From Selenomonadaceae bacterium (GTDB lineage Bacteria > Bacillota > Negativicutes > Selenomonadales > Selenomonadaceae), in contig JAGBKP010000176.1 in NCBI GenBank assembly GCA_017635875.1, positions 1 through 45,667 on the forward strand: a DNA stretch of 45,667 nucleotides, written 5' to 3'. Within the stretch, counting starts at the first letter, position 1. The number at the start of each line of letters is the position of its first letter. The notes under the pieces are model-generated. The model did not search any database, was not told the origin of the DNA, and saw only the letters and a list, made by a program, of their open reading frames with translations. Below are positions 1,784-35,729 of this stretch, one piece after another. A program made the translations under genes and the position numbers.

Positions 1784-3109
1784 TTATATTTTCACTTTAT
1801 CTTCTATGGAAATATCGTCGCCTATTTGCACTTCTATAATTGAAAGCTGTGTTTTTGCGCTTACGGTGTGAGGAGTTTTTCGCTTTATTTCAAGTATGTC
1901 GCCAGCGGATATTTCGCGTTTTTTGCCGTCGATTTTTGCTATACCTTCGCCTTCTGTTACCGTCCAAATTTCGTCGCGATGATTATGATAATGATAGCTT
2001 AATTTATGCCCACAGTTTAAAATTATTTTTATCGTTAAACTATTTTCACCCACGTCTAAAATTTTAAAATCGCCCCAAGATTTTTCCGTGTATCTTATCT
2101 CATTCGGGAATTTTTCAACATAGGGTTTTATATAACTTGATTCGTTTTTATCAGATACCAAAATCCCGTTTGCGCTCGCGACCACCACCGCATTTTTTAT
2201 TCCGCTCACCAACAGCGGCATATCAAGTTCGTTTATGGCGTGCACGTTTTCTGCACTATTTGTCAAAGTTACGTCGCCAAGCGCGCTGTTCATAACCTCC
2301 GTTAAAGTGTTCCAAGTTCCTAAATCTTTCCATTCTCCGTTATAGCGAAGCGCGCCGATTTTTTCTTCTTTTTCCACTACCGCATAATCAAAAGAAATTG
2401 GCGTTATGTTTTCAAAATTATCATAAAGTTCTTGATATGATTTTACATTTAAAATATCTTCGGATTTCTCTATAACATAAGATAATTTCATTGCAAAAAC
2501 GCCGCTGTTCCACAGGGCGTTTTTTTCTATATATTCTTTTGCTGTTTCTTCGTCCGGTTTCTCTTTAAAATAATTTACTTGTGAAATTTCGTCAAAAGTT
2601 TCGGGGAAAATATATCCGTATTTTGCAGATGGATAAGTCGGTTTTATTCCCATAAGCATTATATTGTTATAGCTCGTTTTTGCTGTTTCGCCAAGTCTTT
2701 TTACGCTTAAGAAAAAATCAAAATTTACATAGGGATCGACAGGCAAAAATACAACGATTTCATCTAGACTTACCTGCAAAATATCCTTTAAATAAAAACT
2801 TGCGAGAGCTATCGCGGGAAAAGTATCGCGCCTTAAAGGCTCTTTTGAAATTGAGCAATTTTTCCCTATTTGATTGTTTAAAATCGAGAGCTGTTTCTTT
2901 GGCGCGGCGATTGTTATTTTTGCCGTTGGAATAGCTTTTTTTATATCGTTATAAACCCTCTGTATCATCGAAGAATATTCGCCGTTTTCTTCTTTAAAAA
3001 TACGCAAAAATTGTTTGGAACGAACATCGTTTGAAAGCGGCCAAAGACGTTTGCCCGACCCGCCCGAAAGCAGGATTATATGCAAATTTTTCACCTTCTT
3101 TTTACCCAA
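1784..3109 (-). CDS. manC: Mannose-1-phosphate guanylyltransferase with C-terminal cupin (ManC/CpsB type)
   Basis: Makes GDP-mannose from mannose-1-phosphate and GTP. The cupin part may also isomerise mannose-6-phosphate. The N-terminal nucleotidyltransferase has the signature GGSGKRLWPLSN (about residues 16-27). The middle shows FKEKPDEETAKEYI and NSGVFAMK typical of the family. The C-terminal type II phosphomannose-isomerase cupin has SYHYHNHRDEIW. At 441 residues it is slightly shorter than many bifunctional members. The start is uncertain: TTG 3109 overlaps the fcl gene; GTG 3094 gives MKNLHIILLSGG, the usual family N-terminus. Neither has an ideal Shine-Dalgarno. Last gene of the fucosyltransferase-gmd-fcl-manC operon, supplying the first sugar nucleotide of GDP-fucose synthesis. 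Confidence 0.9.
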   Translation of the reverse strand: MGKKKVKNLHIILLSGGSGKRLWPLSNDVRSKQFLRIFKEENGEYSSMIQRVYNDIKKAIPTAKITIAAPKKQLSILNNQIGKNCSISKEPLRRDTFPAIALASFYLKDILQVSLDEIVVFLPVDPYVNFDFFLSVKRLGETAKTSYNNIMLMGIKPTYPSAKYGYIFPETFDEISQVNYFKEKPDEETAKEYIEKNALWNSGVFAMKLSYVIEKSEDILNVKSYQELYDNFENITPISFDYAVVEKEEKIGALRYNGEWKDLGTWNTLTEVMNSALGDVTLTNSAENVHAINELDMPLLVSGIKNAVVVASANGILVSDKNESSYIKPYVEKFPNEIRYTEKSWGDFKILDVGENSLTIKIILNCGHKLSYHYHNHRDEIWTVTEGEGIAKIDGKKREISAGDILEIKRKTPHTVSAKTQLSIIEVQIGDDISIEDKVKI

Positions 3110-4031
3110 ATCTTTTCAAAAAATCCTCATAAGCGATTTTTATTCCGTCTTTCAATTTTGTTTTAGCAGTCCAACCTAAATTTTTCGCCTTTGTTATATC
3201 CACAAGTTTTCTCGGCGCGCCGTTTGGTTTTGTCGTATCCCATAATATTTCGCCGTTAAATCCTACGATTTCCGCTACTGTTTCCGCCAATTCTTTTATC
3301 GTTATATCTTTTCCAACGCCTGCGTTTATTGTTTCCGCTTCGTTATAATTATTCATTAAAAATACGCATAAATCCGCTAAATCGTCTACGAATAAAAATT
3401 CTCTTAAAGGACTTCCGTCTCCAAAACAAGTTACGCTTTTTTCGTTTGCGATTTTCGCTTCGTGAAAACGACGAATAAGCGCAGGCAAAACGTGACTTCT
3501 TTCTTTATCGTAATTATCGCCTATACCGTATAAATTTGTAGGCATAACAGAAATAAACTCTTTGTTTTTTTCATTAAAAATATATTCGGCGTACTTAAGA
3601 CCGGAAATTTTCGCGAGAGCGTATCCTTCGTTTGTCGGCTCTAACGAAGAAGTCAAAAGCGCGGATTCTTTTATCGGCTGAGGCGCAAGTTTTGGATAAA
3701 TGCAAGAAGAACCCAAAAACAGCAATTTTTTGCAATCGTACTCTAAAGCCGCATGAGTTACGTTCATAGAAATCATAATATTGTCGTACAAAAAATCTGC
3801 TTTTGCCGCTTGATTTGCCATAATTCCGCCGACTTTTGCCGCCGCTAAAAAAACGTATTCCGGCTTTTCTGCTGCGAAAAATTCATTTACTTTTTGCTGA
3901 TTTGTTAAATCCAATTCGCTATGATTTCTTACGATAATATTCGTATAATTTTCCGATTGCAATTTGCGTAAAATCGCGCCGCCAACCATACCTCTATGAC
4001 CGGCTACGAAAATTTTTGAATCTTTTTTCAT
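3102..4031 (-). CDS. fcl: GDP-L-fucose synthase
   Basis: Epimerase-reductase that converts GDP-4-keto-6-deoxy-mannose into GDP-L-fucose with NADPH. Extended short-chain dehydrogenase: the N-terminal Rossmann motif is [10 protein letters not shown], and the catalytic YxxxK is in [14 protein letters not shown]. Family signatures include [17 protein letters not shown] and [13 protein letters not shown]. About 309 residues, the normal length. I chose ATG 4031 because it overlaps the gmd stop as ATGA and has AAGAAGG 10 bases upstream; an ATG at 4037 (two residues longer) is also possible. It is translationally coupled to gmd, the preceding enzyme of the same pathway. Confidence 0.95.
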
Positions 4032-5047
4032 AGGCATTTCACCTTCTTCATATCCTCTTCCACCATCATCTTTACGAGTTCGTTAAAACTTACTTTTCGT
4101 CTCCAACCCAGCGTAGTTTCCGCAAAAGAGCTGTCGCCTAAGAGAATTTCAACTTCTGCGGGGCGGAAAAATTCGGGGTTTACGTCAATTAAAAGTTTGC
4201 CCGTCTTTTTGTCGTATCCCTTTTCTTTTACGCCTTCGCCTTCAAATTCAATATCAATTCCCGCCGCTCTAAACGCCAAAGTCGCAAAGGCGCGTACCGT
4301 GTGGGTTTCTTTTGTCGCAAGCACGTAATCGTTGGGCTTTTCTCGTTGCAACATTAGGTACATACCCTCTACATAATCCCCCGCAAATCCCCAATCGCGC
4401 TTTGCGTCTAAATTTCCTAGAGATATTTTATCTTGCTTTTTCGCCAAAATATTTGCAACGCCTAAAGTGATTTTTCGCGTTACGAAATTTTCGCCCCTTC
4501 GCGGCGATTCATGGTTGAACAAAATTCCGTTTACCGCGAACATATTGTACGCTTCGCGGTAATTTTTCACTATCCAATAAGCGTAAAGTTTCGCCGCGCC
4601 GTAAGGCGAACGAGGGTGAAACGGCGTTTTTTCGCTTTGCGGCTCTGTTCCCGGTATTCCGCCGAAAAGCTCCGACGTTGAGGCTTGATAAAACTTCGTA
4701 TCGGGTTTTGTTTGGCGAAGAGCTTCCAAAAGCCTGATAGTTCCTACGCCCGTAATGTTTGCCGTATATTCCGGCGCGTCAAAAGACGAGCCTACGTGGC
4801 TTTGCGCCGCTAAATTATACACTTCGTTCGGCTGTATTTTTCCTATTATGCGTGTAAGCGAAAGAGAATCGGATAAATCCGCCTCATAGAGATGAAAATT
4901 ATCGTCTTTTATATGGTCTATCCTTTCCGTATTGTGAGAGCTTGCGCGACGAATAAGCCCCGTCACTTCGTAGCCTTTAGACAAGAGAAGTTCCGCTAAA
5001 TAAGAGCCGTCTTGCCCCGTCACTCCCGTTATTATAGCTTTCTTCAT
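4028..5047 (-). CDS. gmd: GDP-mannose 4,6-dehydratase
   Basis: First committed step to GDP-fucose: GDP-mannose to GDP-4-keto-6-deoxy-mannose, NADP dependent. The N-terminus [21 protein letters not shown] is the family dinucleotide-binding motif. [22 protein letters not shown] and [13 protein letters not shown] (catalytic YxxxK) follow, as does [17 protein letters not shown]. 339 residues, full length. ATG 5047 is preceded by AAAGGAG at good spacing. It lies between the fucosyltransferase and fcl, so donor synthesis and transfer are made from one transcript. Confidence 0.97.
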
Positions 5048-5060
5048 ACATGTTGCTCCT

Positions 5061-6009
5061 TTAAAATATCTCTCTTTGCGGGGTTAAATTTATTATCAGT
5101 CCGTCTCTATACTCTCTAAACAGGGCGGCGCAAAAACAAAAACTCGAATTGTTCACTATTCTGTGCTTGCACATAGCCATAAGTTGCATATCAATATAGT
5201 TGTTTGGGCTTTGATTTCCTTCTACGTATATTATGTTGTTATGCGTAAGCCCAAGTTCGTCGATATGTTCTTTGCAATACGCCAAATCGTCGCTGAAAAT
5301 AAAATATGTCGGATTGCTTATTTTTTCATTCATCGCCTTTACCGCGCTCGCGTACGCCTCCGGCGGCATCGCCCAATTTAGATTTACAAAATCGCCGCGC
5401 CTTATATGAAGCGCAACGGATTCCGTTGACTTTATCTCGCTTGCGTATTTTGCGTTTTCTTCTCCGACGAGCGACGGAAATGGATTTGCTGGAATACAGT
5501 TTGCCTTCCTTAAGTCGTTAAAATAGTGTCCTATAATAGTATATATGTGATAATATATCATTCCCGCATTTTTCACGACCGCTGGAAAATAAGAAGGCAT
5601 ATATGTAATACTTCCCGAAAACTTCGGCGCGTTCACCTCGCCGACCACCGATATGTCATACCCCCCCCAGCAATTGTTCGGCTATTCCTTCGCCAAGTTC
5701 TGCGCGTTTTATCATATCCATATATATTTGACCCGGGATTATGTCGACGAGTTTTTTTATTTTAAATCCGAAAAGTTTTTCAAGTTCATAGCCGTTATGC
5801 GGGTTGGTATAAAAAAATATGGAAGTATCCGCTATAACGGGAGCTTTCCCGGAACATTCCAAAAACCGATAGAAAAAATATTGGCAAAGCTGATTGCCAA
5901 GCCCCCCGTTCATAAAGGTGATTCGCTCGTCGCCGTTAAGACCGTACGCCTCTCTGGCAACTTTTTTGCTTAAACTCGACAATGCGCGGGCTTCTTCTAT
6001 GTTTTTCAT
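5061..6009 (-). CDS. GT11 alpha-1,2-fucosyltransferase-like gene, frame-broken at a G tract (phase-variable, OFF here)
   Basis: Likely transfers fucose from GDP-fucose to a surface glycan. It is read in two frames. The first 117 residues (6009 to 5656) hold the family N-terminus [17 protein letters not shown]. The second part (to 5061) holds the donor-binding motif HIRRGDFV, then [12 protein letters not shown] and [12 protein letters not shown], typical of glycosyltransferase family 11. The break is at eight Gs (5668-5661 on the minus strand). With eight, translation ends GGV-stop; with seven the frames join as [14 protein letters not shown] to give 315 residues, a normal GT11 length. Start ATG 6009 has AAGGAGG. 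No other stop interrupts either half, so this is an intact switchable gene rather than a decayed one. A consensus error at the tract is the main alternative. Confidence 0.85.
5661..5668. repeat. Homopolymer tract (8 C on plus, 8 G in coding strand) inside the fucosyltransferase
   Basis: It lies exactly at the crossing point of the two reading frames. Loss of one G, or gain of two, restores the full protein. Poly-C/G tracts are known switches of fucosyltransferase genes in Helicobacter pylori. Confidence 0.85.
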
Positions 6010-32827: not shown

Positions 32828-33958
32828 TTATATTCTTTTGCAAAAACCATATATTGTTTCAACTACTTTTTCCAAATCGCGCCTATCCATATCGTAGTAG
32901 AGCGGCAGTCTTACGAGTCTTTCGCTCTCCTTTGTGGTGTATTCGTCTTTTCCGCTCAATCTGCCGTAAATCTTTCCCGCAGGCGCGCTGTGGAGGGGAA
33001 TATAGTGAAAAACCGCGCCGATATCCCGTTCTTTTAAATAATTTATGAATTTTGTACGCTCGTCTAAATCCTTTAACTTCACATAAAACATATGCGCGTT
33101 ATGCGTCGCATAATCAGGTATTGTCATAAGTTCAAGTTTTTCTTTTGCCGCAAGGTCTTTTAAATTATCGTTGTAAAAATTCCACGAATCCATTCTGCTC
33201 TTATTTATTTTTTCGGCGTTAATGAGTTCGCCGTAAAGATACGCCGCGTTAAGCTCGCTTAAAAGATAGCTGTCGCCAAAATCCACCCAAGTGTATTTGT
33301 CTATTTCGCCCCTGAAAAATTTGGAGCGATTGGTGCCCTTTTCCCTCAAAATTTCCGCCCGCTCGTTATTTTTCGCGTCTTTAACGGCGATAGCGCCGCC
33401 TTCGCCGGAGGATAAGTTTTTCGTTTCGTGGAAAGAATAGCAACCGAAATCGCCCAAAGTCCCCAAGAATTTATCTTTGTACTTTGCGTAAAGCGCCTGC
33501 GCCGCGTCCTCTATTATAAAGAGATTATATTTTTTTGCGATTTCAAATATTTTTTCCATATCGCAGGCGACTCCCGCGTAATGCACGAGCATAACGGCGC
33601 GGGTCTTATCCGTAATCGCGGCTTCTATTTTGTTTTCGTCTATATTCATAGTATCGGGGCGAATATCGACAAATACGAGCCTTGCCCCCGCAAGCACGCA
33701 AGACGTCGCTGTCGAAGAAAAAGTGTAGCTCGGAAGTATCACTTCGTCGCCTCGTTTTAACGACAAAAACGCCGCCATATCAAGAGCCGACGTGCCGCTC
33801 GTCGTTAAAAGTATCTTGTTTGCTCCCAAACTTTCCTCCAATAGTTTGGAGGATTTTTTTGTAAACTCGCCGTCGCCGGAGATTTTTCTTTTTTCCGCGG
33901 CTTCTTTTATATATGTAAGTTCGTCGCCCACAAAAGGCGGTATGTTAAACGGTATCAT
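32828..33958 (-). CDS. WecE-like dTDP-4-amino-4,6-dideoxy sugar aminotransferase (DegT/DnrJ family)
   Basis: 376 residues. PLP-dependent sugar-nucleotide aminotransferase. The opening MIPFNIPPFVGDELTYI, then TTSGTSALDMAAFLSL, HYAGVACDMEKI, the active-site region IIEDAAQALYAKYKDKFLG and YSFHETKNLSSGEGGAI with the PLP-binding Lys (HETKN) are characteristic of RffA/WecE, which converts dTDP-4-keto-6-deoxy-glucose to dTDP-4-amino-fucose. ATG 33958 has GAGGG at good spacing; the longer GTG 33973 start overlaps the upstream stop. Lies right after a phase-variable glycosyltransferase-like gene, so both may decorate one surface glycan. Confidence 0.9.
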   Translation of the reverse strand: MIPFNIPPFVGDELTYIKEAAEKRKISGDGEFTKKSSKLLEESLGANKILLTTSGTSALDMAAFLSLKRGDEVILPSYTFSSTATSCVLAGARLVFVDIRPDTMNIDENKIEAAITDKTRAVMLVHYAGVACDMEKIFEIAKKYNLFIIEDAAQALYAKYKDKFLGTLGDFGCYSFHETKNLSSGEGGAIAVKDAKNNERAEILREKGTNRSKFFRGEIDKYTWVDFGDSYLLSELNAAYLYGELINAEKINKSRMDSWNFYNDNLKDLAAKEKLELMTIPDYATHNAHMFYVKLKDLDERTKFINYLKERDIGAVFHYIPLHSAPAGKIYGRLSGKDEYTTKESERLVRLPLYYDMDRRDLEKVVETIYGFCKRI

Positions 33959-33969
33959 AAGCTTATCCC

Positions 33970-35368
33970 TCACGAAAATATTTCACTCTGAAACACTTTA
34001 AAATGCCAAGCGCGAAAATCCCTTGTTTCGGGTTCGGCTATATTAAAGGTGTGAGGTCGTCGCTCAAAAATCGCGCGCCGCATATATTCTATCATTTCAT
34101 CACGCGTATATATCGCGTTTTTCATATTGCCTTTTATTTCGTTTCTGTATGCGGCGTCCTTTATATATCTGTCTATCGCCTTAAGTATATCGTTATAATT
34201 GTTAAAAATAACGCCTAATTTCTCGTCGTTTCTGAGGAGTCCGTACACTTCGTCGTTAAACTTCAGCGTAAACGGCGGGCAAAGGGACGCCGCCGCAAAA
34301 ACCATAGTAGAACCGCCAAACATCGGATAGGTGTTTAAAAACATATCGCTATGGCGGAAAACTTCCTTTAAGTCGTCCCTAATGGACGTGTTAAAAACCC
34401 TGTCGGGAAATTTTTCTTTTAATTCCAGAAACCCGGGCGCTTGATTTTCCATAGCGTACCAAAATTTTACGTTTTTATGCCATGTCAGCATATTGTAGAC
34501 TATGTTGTAAAAAGTAAGTCCTTTGTCCAGCGTTTTATAAACGTTGCCGCCCGAAAAAATTATAAAATCATCGTCGCTTTTGGGGAAGGGATAACCTTTA
34601 AAAGGAATATCCGGCAAAACGGGGCTGTAATGAAACTCAAGTATCTTTTCTTCTGGAATACCGCGATAAAGGACAGCCAACGACGCGCCGTAGTTTCTGC
34701 ACTCCAAAAAGTAATCGAAAGCGTTCCGCCCAATCCAAAAAGCGTGGTCTGTTATATCAAACATAAAACGAGTCATAGAGCCTTTAAAGCGCATAAACGC
34801 CAAAAGCCCCGGAACATCTCTCGGTATCGGATAAAAAAACGCGTATTCCGGCTTTACGGTTAAAATCGAATCGCAAAGCGCGTAATATGTGTCTAACATA
34901 GATAATCCCGCGGGGAACGTCACAATATCGCCTTTATATTTTTCAATAACTTTACGCGTTTTCGGTATACTGTCTAATCTGCTGTCCGGCATTAAATATA
35001 CGATATGCAAACCGAGCGCGCCCAAAGAATCCAGAAATTGCTTCGTAAGGCTATGATCGTCAAAAGCGGGATTATCGTAATATAAGACGGTGTTTTTCTT
35101 TGCGACAAACGCCGTTTCGCCTTTTTTCGTAAGTTTTTCGTTCAAGAGCAAAAGCGCCATTTCCAAGAAATCATTCGCGTAATCCTGATTTATATACACG
35201 TGCTTTAACGCGATGCCAAACATTATTCCCGCCGCTTCTTCCAAGCGATCGTTTTCTATGTGCTCCAAAATTTTGCGATGATATTTTTCAAGTTGCGGGC
35301 TAAGCTGAGAAAAATAATTTAAACTCTCATCGTCAAGTCTACTACTGGGGGGGGGTGATACGCGCCAT
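33970..35368 (-). CDS. Glycosyltransferase-like protein, start out of frame at a C tract (phase-variable, OFF here)
   Basis: About 465 residues when in frame. A typical start (GGGAG, 9 bases, ATG 35368) leads into MARITP then nine Cs. With nine the peptide stops after 16 residues; with eight it continues PPSSRLDDESLNYFSQ into the long frame. The frame is open up to the tract, so the apparent TTG at 35268 is probably not the real start. The body has GT-B-like C-terminal features: FWYAMENQAPGFLELKEKFPD, FLNTYPMFGGSTMVFAAASL (acceptor/donor loop with GGST) and repeated helices as in GT41/HMW1C-like enzymes. Substrate unknown; O- or N-glycosylation of a surface protein such as flagellin is possible. 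A sequence error at the tract is the alternative. Confidence 0.75.
35347..35355. repeat. Homopolymer tract (9 G on plus, 9 C in coding strand) near the glycosyltransferase start
   Basis: Lies 13 bases after the ATG at 35368. Eight or eleven Cs put ATG and coding frame in register; nine, as here, does not. Confidence 0.85.
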
Positions 35369-35429
35369 ATATTTCAACTCCCGTTAAGATTGCAATATTT
35401 ATTTTCCTTAAAAGGCATCTCTAAAAACC

Positions 35430-35534
35430 TTACTTTCTTTTTCTCTTTTCTTTTTTGCCTGTCCTCCCTTGCGGAGGGAAAAAAAGAAAAAAAAAAGAAA
35501 GTAACAAAGAAAAAAGAGAAAAGAAAAAACTTTA
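35430..35534 (+). repeat. Three-arm purine/pyrimidine repeat A8 with hairpin loop
   Basis: Pyrimidine arm, loop GCCTGTCCTCCCTTGCGGAG with its own stem CCTCC/GGAGG, purine arm ending GAAAGTAAC, mirrored third arm AAAGAAAAAAGAGAAAAG. R1 has lost some G residues relative to R2. Confidence 0.8.
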
Positions 35535-35655: not shown

Positions 35656-35729
35656 TGGAGGCGACACCCAGAATCGAACTGGGGATAAAGGTTTTGCAGA
35701 CCTCGGCCTTACCACTTGGCTATGTCGCC
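35656..35729 (-). tRNA. tRNA-Cys (anticodon GCA)
   Basis: 74 nt with encoded CCA. Acceptor stem GGCGACA (35729-35723) / TGTCGCC (35666-35660), discriminator U as in tRNA-Cys, anticodon loop CTGCAAA giving GCA, T-loop GTTCGATTC. A near-consensus promoter precedes it. Confidence 0.96.

Follow-up and report, generated by a model that had tools for sequence, protein, structure and literature searches.

On/off switching of genes by runs of C or G is known mainly from pathogens, Campylobacter being an example. The phase-variable fucosyltransferase gene futC of Helicobacter pylori contains a poly-C tract, and in Neisseria the tracts of porA and opc are found in promoter spacers. For Campylobacter, a study (PMC6321876) reports poly-G/C tracts with a peak length of 9-10 bases in sugar transferase, methyltransferase, haemagglutinin-type and autotransporter genes, 5-81 poly-G/C phase-variable genes per strain and, in one gene set, an ON fraction near neutral drift. 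The genome studied here (G000, from a member of the Selenomonadaceae, a family grouping of GTDB) resembles Campylobacter in having poly-G/C tracts of similar lengths in the same kinds of genes. It differs in that the host belongs to the class Negativicutes of the Bacillota, that switching is here a prediction from sequence, and that tracts are also found within flagellin coding regions and in the spacers of a set of promoters. As in futC, a C/G tract interrupts a GT11-type gene (at 5661-5668), but the gene that concerns us codes for a different, GT-B protein. As in porA and opc, homopolymers lie between -35 and -10 elements, where their length sets the spacer, but here the arrangement recurs in a family of five or more paralogous promoters within a single genome of the Selenomonadaceae. 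The mechanism is thus known in kind; a search of the open-access literature, top matches only, gave no paper on phase variation in this family among the matches listed, and a large poly-G/C phasome in Selenomonadaceae is new as far as searched.

The locus occupies positions 32828-35368, on the minus strand, of the window (the whole 45,667-nucleotide stretch of DNA that was analysed), and its host we take to be a gut-type bacterium. It is very probably a two-gene glycan operon, the first gene of which, called here the GT gene, is a simple-sequence-repeat contingency locus within a genome-wide poly-G/C phasome. The elements pointed out in an earlier note on this DNA are present: a Shine-Dalgarno-like GGGAG (35382-35378), located 9 nt from the ATG (35368-35366), and a run of nine Cs (35355-35347) which begins at codon 5 and extends to codon 8. 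Beyond the tract, the frame is uninterrupted for 458 codons (35346-33970), down to a TGA at 33972-33970, and as assembled this ORF is one base out with respect to the frame of ATG 35368. Translation of tract-length variants reproduced the 465 amino acids announced for the eight-C form, but the stop after 16 residues that had been attributed to nine Cs has to be corrected: in the assembled sequence the ATG frame runs for only 8 residues before its stop (CAG TAG TAG), and it is with ten Cs that 16 residues are obtained. A promoter-like sequence, TTGACT-18-TATGAT (35622-35593), might serve the GT gene, judging only from its match to the consensus at 10 of 12 positions. Between this sequence and the gene, the region 35420-35520 contains a long purine/pyrimidine inverted repeat, and the tract flanks in two other loci of the genome (L004 and L022) are similar to it. 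Directly upstream of the operon is a tRNA-Cys gene with a consensus promoter (35656-35729); at the gathering cut-off, a tRNA was the sole match given by Rfam in the whole window.

The protein encoded downstream of the tract was modelled with AlphaFold2 from 69 sequences (mean pLDDT 93.7, pTM 0.90), and the prediction can be assigned with confidence to the GT-B glycosyltransferase fold, with two Rossmann-like domains; the description of the product as glycosyltransferase-like is thereby borne out at the level of predicted structure. Among the matches listed by structure comparison, which include many tied rows, are BshA (5d00_B; Z 24.1, 324 residues aligned, rmsd 3.3 Å) and a bacterial O-GlcNAc transferase (2jlb_A; Z 22.0, 381 residues aligned, rmsd 4.5 Å), and a fold family that is absent from the VIA-align list is not thereby excluded. 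With GT41 O-GlcNAc transferase (OGT) and SPINDLY (SPY), GT4 BshA and other GT-B enzymes, the protein has the GT-B fold in common over residues 83-430, and with OGT and SPY the N-terminal helices align too, but identity to all of these enzymes is about 10-13%. Since UDP-GlcNAc 2-epimerases have the same fold, the label 'glycosyltransferase' is based on fold and context, which together make this function the probable one. Scans with Pfam and NCBIfam gave no match for the window protein. When three relatives were scanned with Pfam, L035 matched PF13524 and PF13692 (E 9e-4 and 0.02) and L036 matched PF13692 (E 0.012), all below cut-off, and L033 gave no match; in one homologue among those scanned, L035, the protein is fused to a hexapeptide acetyltransferase domain. 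A search of the PDB sequences with the family profile was set aside, because it returned mainly designed helical proteins matching the N-terminal helices.

The second gene of the operon (32828-33973, minus strand) encodes a WecE-type dTDP-4-amino-4,6-dideoxy-sugar transaminase, scoring 562.6 bits with TIGR02379 (cut-off 434.85) and 577.1 bits with NF008687 (cut-off 375), and the WecE-like aminotransferase of the DegT/WecE type noted previously is therefore confirmed by both profiles. Its GTG start overlaps the TGA stop of the GT gene by four bases (GTGA), an arrangement suggestive of translational coupling from the GT gene to wecE. A sugar-aminotransferase-like ORF, as judged from its translation, likewise follows the GT homologue in two genomes of the same family (G025 and G019).

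The genome is a fragmented draft (2,389,427 bases, i.e. 2.39 Mb, in 222 contigs), so that individual tract lengths may be wrong. C/G runs of 6 or more bases number 122; 34 of them reach 8 bases (33 when the base before the run must not be C), 26 reach 9 and 8 reach 11. For runs of at least 9, extrapolation from the runs of 6-7, with decay ratios of 0.22-0.30, gives an expectation of about 1-3 (1.0-2.6). The length spectrum of the 34 tracts (eight of 8, nine of 9, nine of 10, four of 11, one each of 12 and 13 and two of 14) is flat from 8 to 10 instead of showing a geometric fall-off. In general, coding genes are reported to have fewer poly-C/G tracts than expected (PMC2831843). Two of the 34 tracts are no more than 15 bases away from the end of a contig, against an expectation of 0.09; such an excess is what length-mixed reads would cause. 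Only two runs of at least 8 are in the window, the one at 35347-35355 and a G8 on the coding strand at 5661-5668. The latter is the second case that had led to the proposal that two surface genes shifted at homopolymers exceed chance, and both its existence and the genome-wide count agree with that proposal.

Whether a run coincides with a broken frame was determined in 252 kb of the genome, comprising the window and 31 loci (L001-L031) picked around C/G tracts, with the requirement that both sides be coding by a codon model; 23 of the 34 tracts, having one or no clearly coding side, did not enter the test. The frame was broken at 9 of the 11 C/G runs of at least 8 with both sides clearly coding, as compared to 3 of 127 A/T runs of 7-8 (3/112 for length 7 and 0/15 for length 8; Fisher p 3e-10) and none of three C/G runs of 6-7. 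Frame breaks are therefore specific to C/G runs of at least 8 and not a generic homopolymer error. A hand count of 20 classifiable coding tracts, which omitted L001, L002, L018 and L031 (contig end or ambiguous) as well as promoter and unassigned tracts, found 14 out of frame and 6 in frame, the latter being close to the one third expected of random lengths.

For 19 of the 34 tracts the gene that holds them has an identifiable domain or fold, 4 are in ORFs without Pfam match and 5 in promoter spacers; 6 are unassigned (L004, L007, L025 and L026 fall in repeats or between genes, L018 at the end of a contig, and L021 close to a Fic gene). The methyl- and acetyltransferases identified with Pfam are FkbM (3), TylF (1), Methyltransf_24 (1) and GNAT (1), and the sugar genes are GT9, GT92/GT2, GT11 and the GT gene itself, one of each. 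The others encode a nucleotidyltransferase/kinase-type (APH) pair (1), citrate-lyase-ligase-like proteins (3), a PglD-like protein (1), flagellins (2), a type I HsdS (1) and a two-partner-secretion (TPS) domain protein (1). The design with a tract right after the ATG recurs in the GT9 gene (L006) and in a citrate-lyase-ligase-like gene (L003). The proteins of L003, L017 and L023 are related to each other and share a citrate-lyase-ligase domain at the C-terminus, and each of the three genes has a tract. The two flagellin genes (L012:4061-4070 and L027:3995-4008) have a G tract at the same position in the N-terminal region, and both are out of frame as assembled. At L015:4008-4015, an hsdS gene is broken at a G8 adjoining a TTEL repeat, and restriction specificity could possibly be phase-variable by this means. 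Spacer tracts are found ahead of large proteins at L016, L019, L029, L030 and L008. The five promoters have the form TTGACA-N7-Gn-TGN followed by a -10-like hexamer, with spacers of 18, 19, 19, 20 and 20, and the proteins behind them carry MN[LI]xFDLQ within their first 35 residues; those scanned gave no convincing Pfam match.

The tract of the GT gene has two features of simple-sequence-repeat contingency loci: it is longer than chance would give and is placed such that a change of ±1 unit switches the frame, as it would switch the spacing in the promoters. The way it may operate is as follows. Slipped-strand mispairing would add Cs to the poly-C tract or remove them; the gene would be in frame (ON) in one of three length classes, and the other two would lead to a stop within about 7-17 codons (OFF), which would be the assembled state. 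Translation of WecE may likewise be lower in the OFF state, given the overlap between its start and the GT stop. On a genome scale, such a phasome would vary surface glycans, methyl and acyl groups, flagellins, the specificity subunit of a type I restriction system and the large proteins behind the spacer promoters; the GT gene product itself may decorate the surface. The suggestion of a switchable glycan gene at a C tract therefore gains support and was even too modest, given the specificity of the frame breaks and the presence of the same type of tract in dozens of mostly surface-related genes of this genome and its relatives.

Three other readings have to be weighed. The frame shift could reflect ordinary pseudogene decay, or a sequencing or assembly error at a homopolymer, with no switch involved; the assembly is indeed a draft in 222 contigs, and long C/G runs are generally error-prone. 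But error would not yield the excess of long C/G runs or concentrate them in surface genes, the A/T runs of the same loci are rarely accompanied by a break, and the remainder of the GT gene is intact over 458 codons, so that we regard this explanation as improbable. A little less credible still is constant expression from a start at TTG 35268, with the tract and the ATG in a leader of no consequence. The 432-amino-acid ORF from this TTG is open, and distant relatives resemble the protein most from about residue 53 of 458 onwards. The 26 codons from the tract to the TTG have a moderate coding score, 0.06 per codon versus 0.25 for the gene body in the codon model. However, in many homologues about 45-50 residues come before the region of strong conservation; by this measure the natural start lies shortly after the tract position and upstream of the TTG. 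In addition, a start at the TTG would cut a predicted helix (residues 2-31, with pLDDT of 62, 84 and 98 in successive blocks of ten) and would lack a Shine-Dalgarno-like sequence such as the GGGAG that precedes ATG 35368. Since the N-termini of homologues extend upstream of TTG 35268, these data favour a start at ATG 35368, with translation across the tract.

The third reading, to which we give the least credence, is that the DNA tract is fixed and that full-length protein arises by slippage of the RNA polymerase or the ribosome on the Cs, acting as a rheostat and not as a genetic switch. A nine-base run can promote polymerase slippage, but at the DNA level the lengths of homologous tracts are not the same in all paralogues and species, and slippage of frame would be irrelevant to the five tracts in promoter spacers. 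Among four of these promoters, with flanks 84-90% alike, the tracts at the same position measure 8, 9, 9 and 10; tracts at the same position are 11 and 9 long in L017 and L023, and 10 and 14 in the flagellin genes. Across species of one genus, L171 has 10 and L181 has 8 in a flank about 77% identical, and two other pairs (L172/L026 and L176/L185) are of equal length, 10 and 10. As judged from these alignments, homologous tract lengths have changed over evolutionary time, as distinct from within one population.

A profile search with an alignment of relatives found 76 loci, the closest in Schwartzia, Anaerovibrio, Propionispira, Mitsuokella and other Selenomonadaceae and the remaining ones in Clostridia, Bacteroidetes and a few further groups; G001 and G002, of the same genus, gave no match to the protein. 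In 82 homologue loci, a few of them present twice because two collections were used, no C/G run of 7 or more lies near the start of a complete gene. Conservation of the tract among homologues was therefore rejected; the tract is lineage-specific, which counts against the proposed reading. Elsewhere in the homologues, L045 has a G8 late in frame and the fragment L037 a G7 at its edge, and a distant homologue from Antarcticimicrobium (L107) has a C13 inside the gene.

The survey of relatives covered 150 genomes of the same family and class, G000 included. Three of the same family share identical DNA with named organisms: G025 with Propionispira arboris, G019 with Mitsuokella sp. oral taxon 131 and G010 with Selenomonas sp. 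F0473, in agreement with the placement of the host in the Selenomonadaceae. At least four C/G runs of 11 or more were found in nine of the 150: G000 (8), G001 (4), G004 (4), G035 (15), G064 (82), G081 (4), G092 (4), G108 (9) and G130 (6). G035 was left out because its contig L154 consists almost entirely of C and is an artefact of assembly or sequencing. Ten chosen tract pieces from G001 and G002 gave Pfam matches to FkbM (5), TylF (1), GNAT (1) and GT group 1 (1), and two gave none. G064, of the same family (L115-L134), has 90 runs of at least 8, including the 82 of at least 11, a number on par with the 5-81 phase-variable genes reported per Campylobacter strain (PMC6321876). Ten chosen pieces matched GT8, GT2, GT group 1, FkbM (2), radical SAM (2), a TonB receptor and an oxidoreductase, with one lacking a match; the oxidoreductase indicates that tract genes in this genome are not all surface genes. 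Two GT2-type genes in L134, one of which was run against Pfam, have the tract directly after the ATG, and several GT8-like genes (L119, L124 and L127) have it at one fixed internal place. The design therefore recurs in another genus of Selenomonadaceae.

Taken more broadly, it seems likely, if less so than the reading of the operon itself, that the Selenomonadaceae, which are Bacillota with a Gram-negative type of wall, evolved their own large poly-G/C phasomes, switching surface glycans, flagellins, restriction specificity and spacer promoters at once. Members of this family are largely commensal anaerobes. If true, large multi-locus phase variation would be common beyond recognised pathogens, and which surface genes of such a species are on could be misjudged from a single assembly. 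Glycans, flagellins, HsdS and spacer promoters are ready candidates to be tested in the reads of metagenomes that already exist.

The second tract of the window, the G8 at 5661-5668, splits a GT11 fucosyltransferase-type gene (5061-6009, minus strand) into ORFs 5656-6009 and 5061-5648. The downstream half matches PF01531 (E 2.2e-16, 60.4 bits, cut-off 23.9); Pfam recognises nothing in the upstream half by itself. Adjoining it at 1784-5047, on the same strand, are sugar-nucleotide genes of nucleotidyltransferase/mannose-phosphate isomerase type, epimerase and GDP-mannose dehydratase, which probably belong to a GDP-fucose pathway. Two observations from the relatives may be added: six runs of exactly 11 C/G occur in G130, from another family of the class (L148-L153), mostly without long ORFs on both sides, and L115 of G064 has a site resembling the spacer promoters, TTGACA-17-TATACT.
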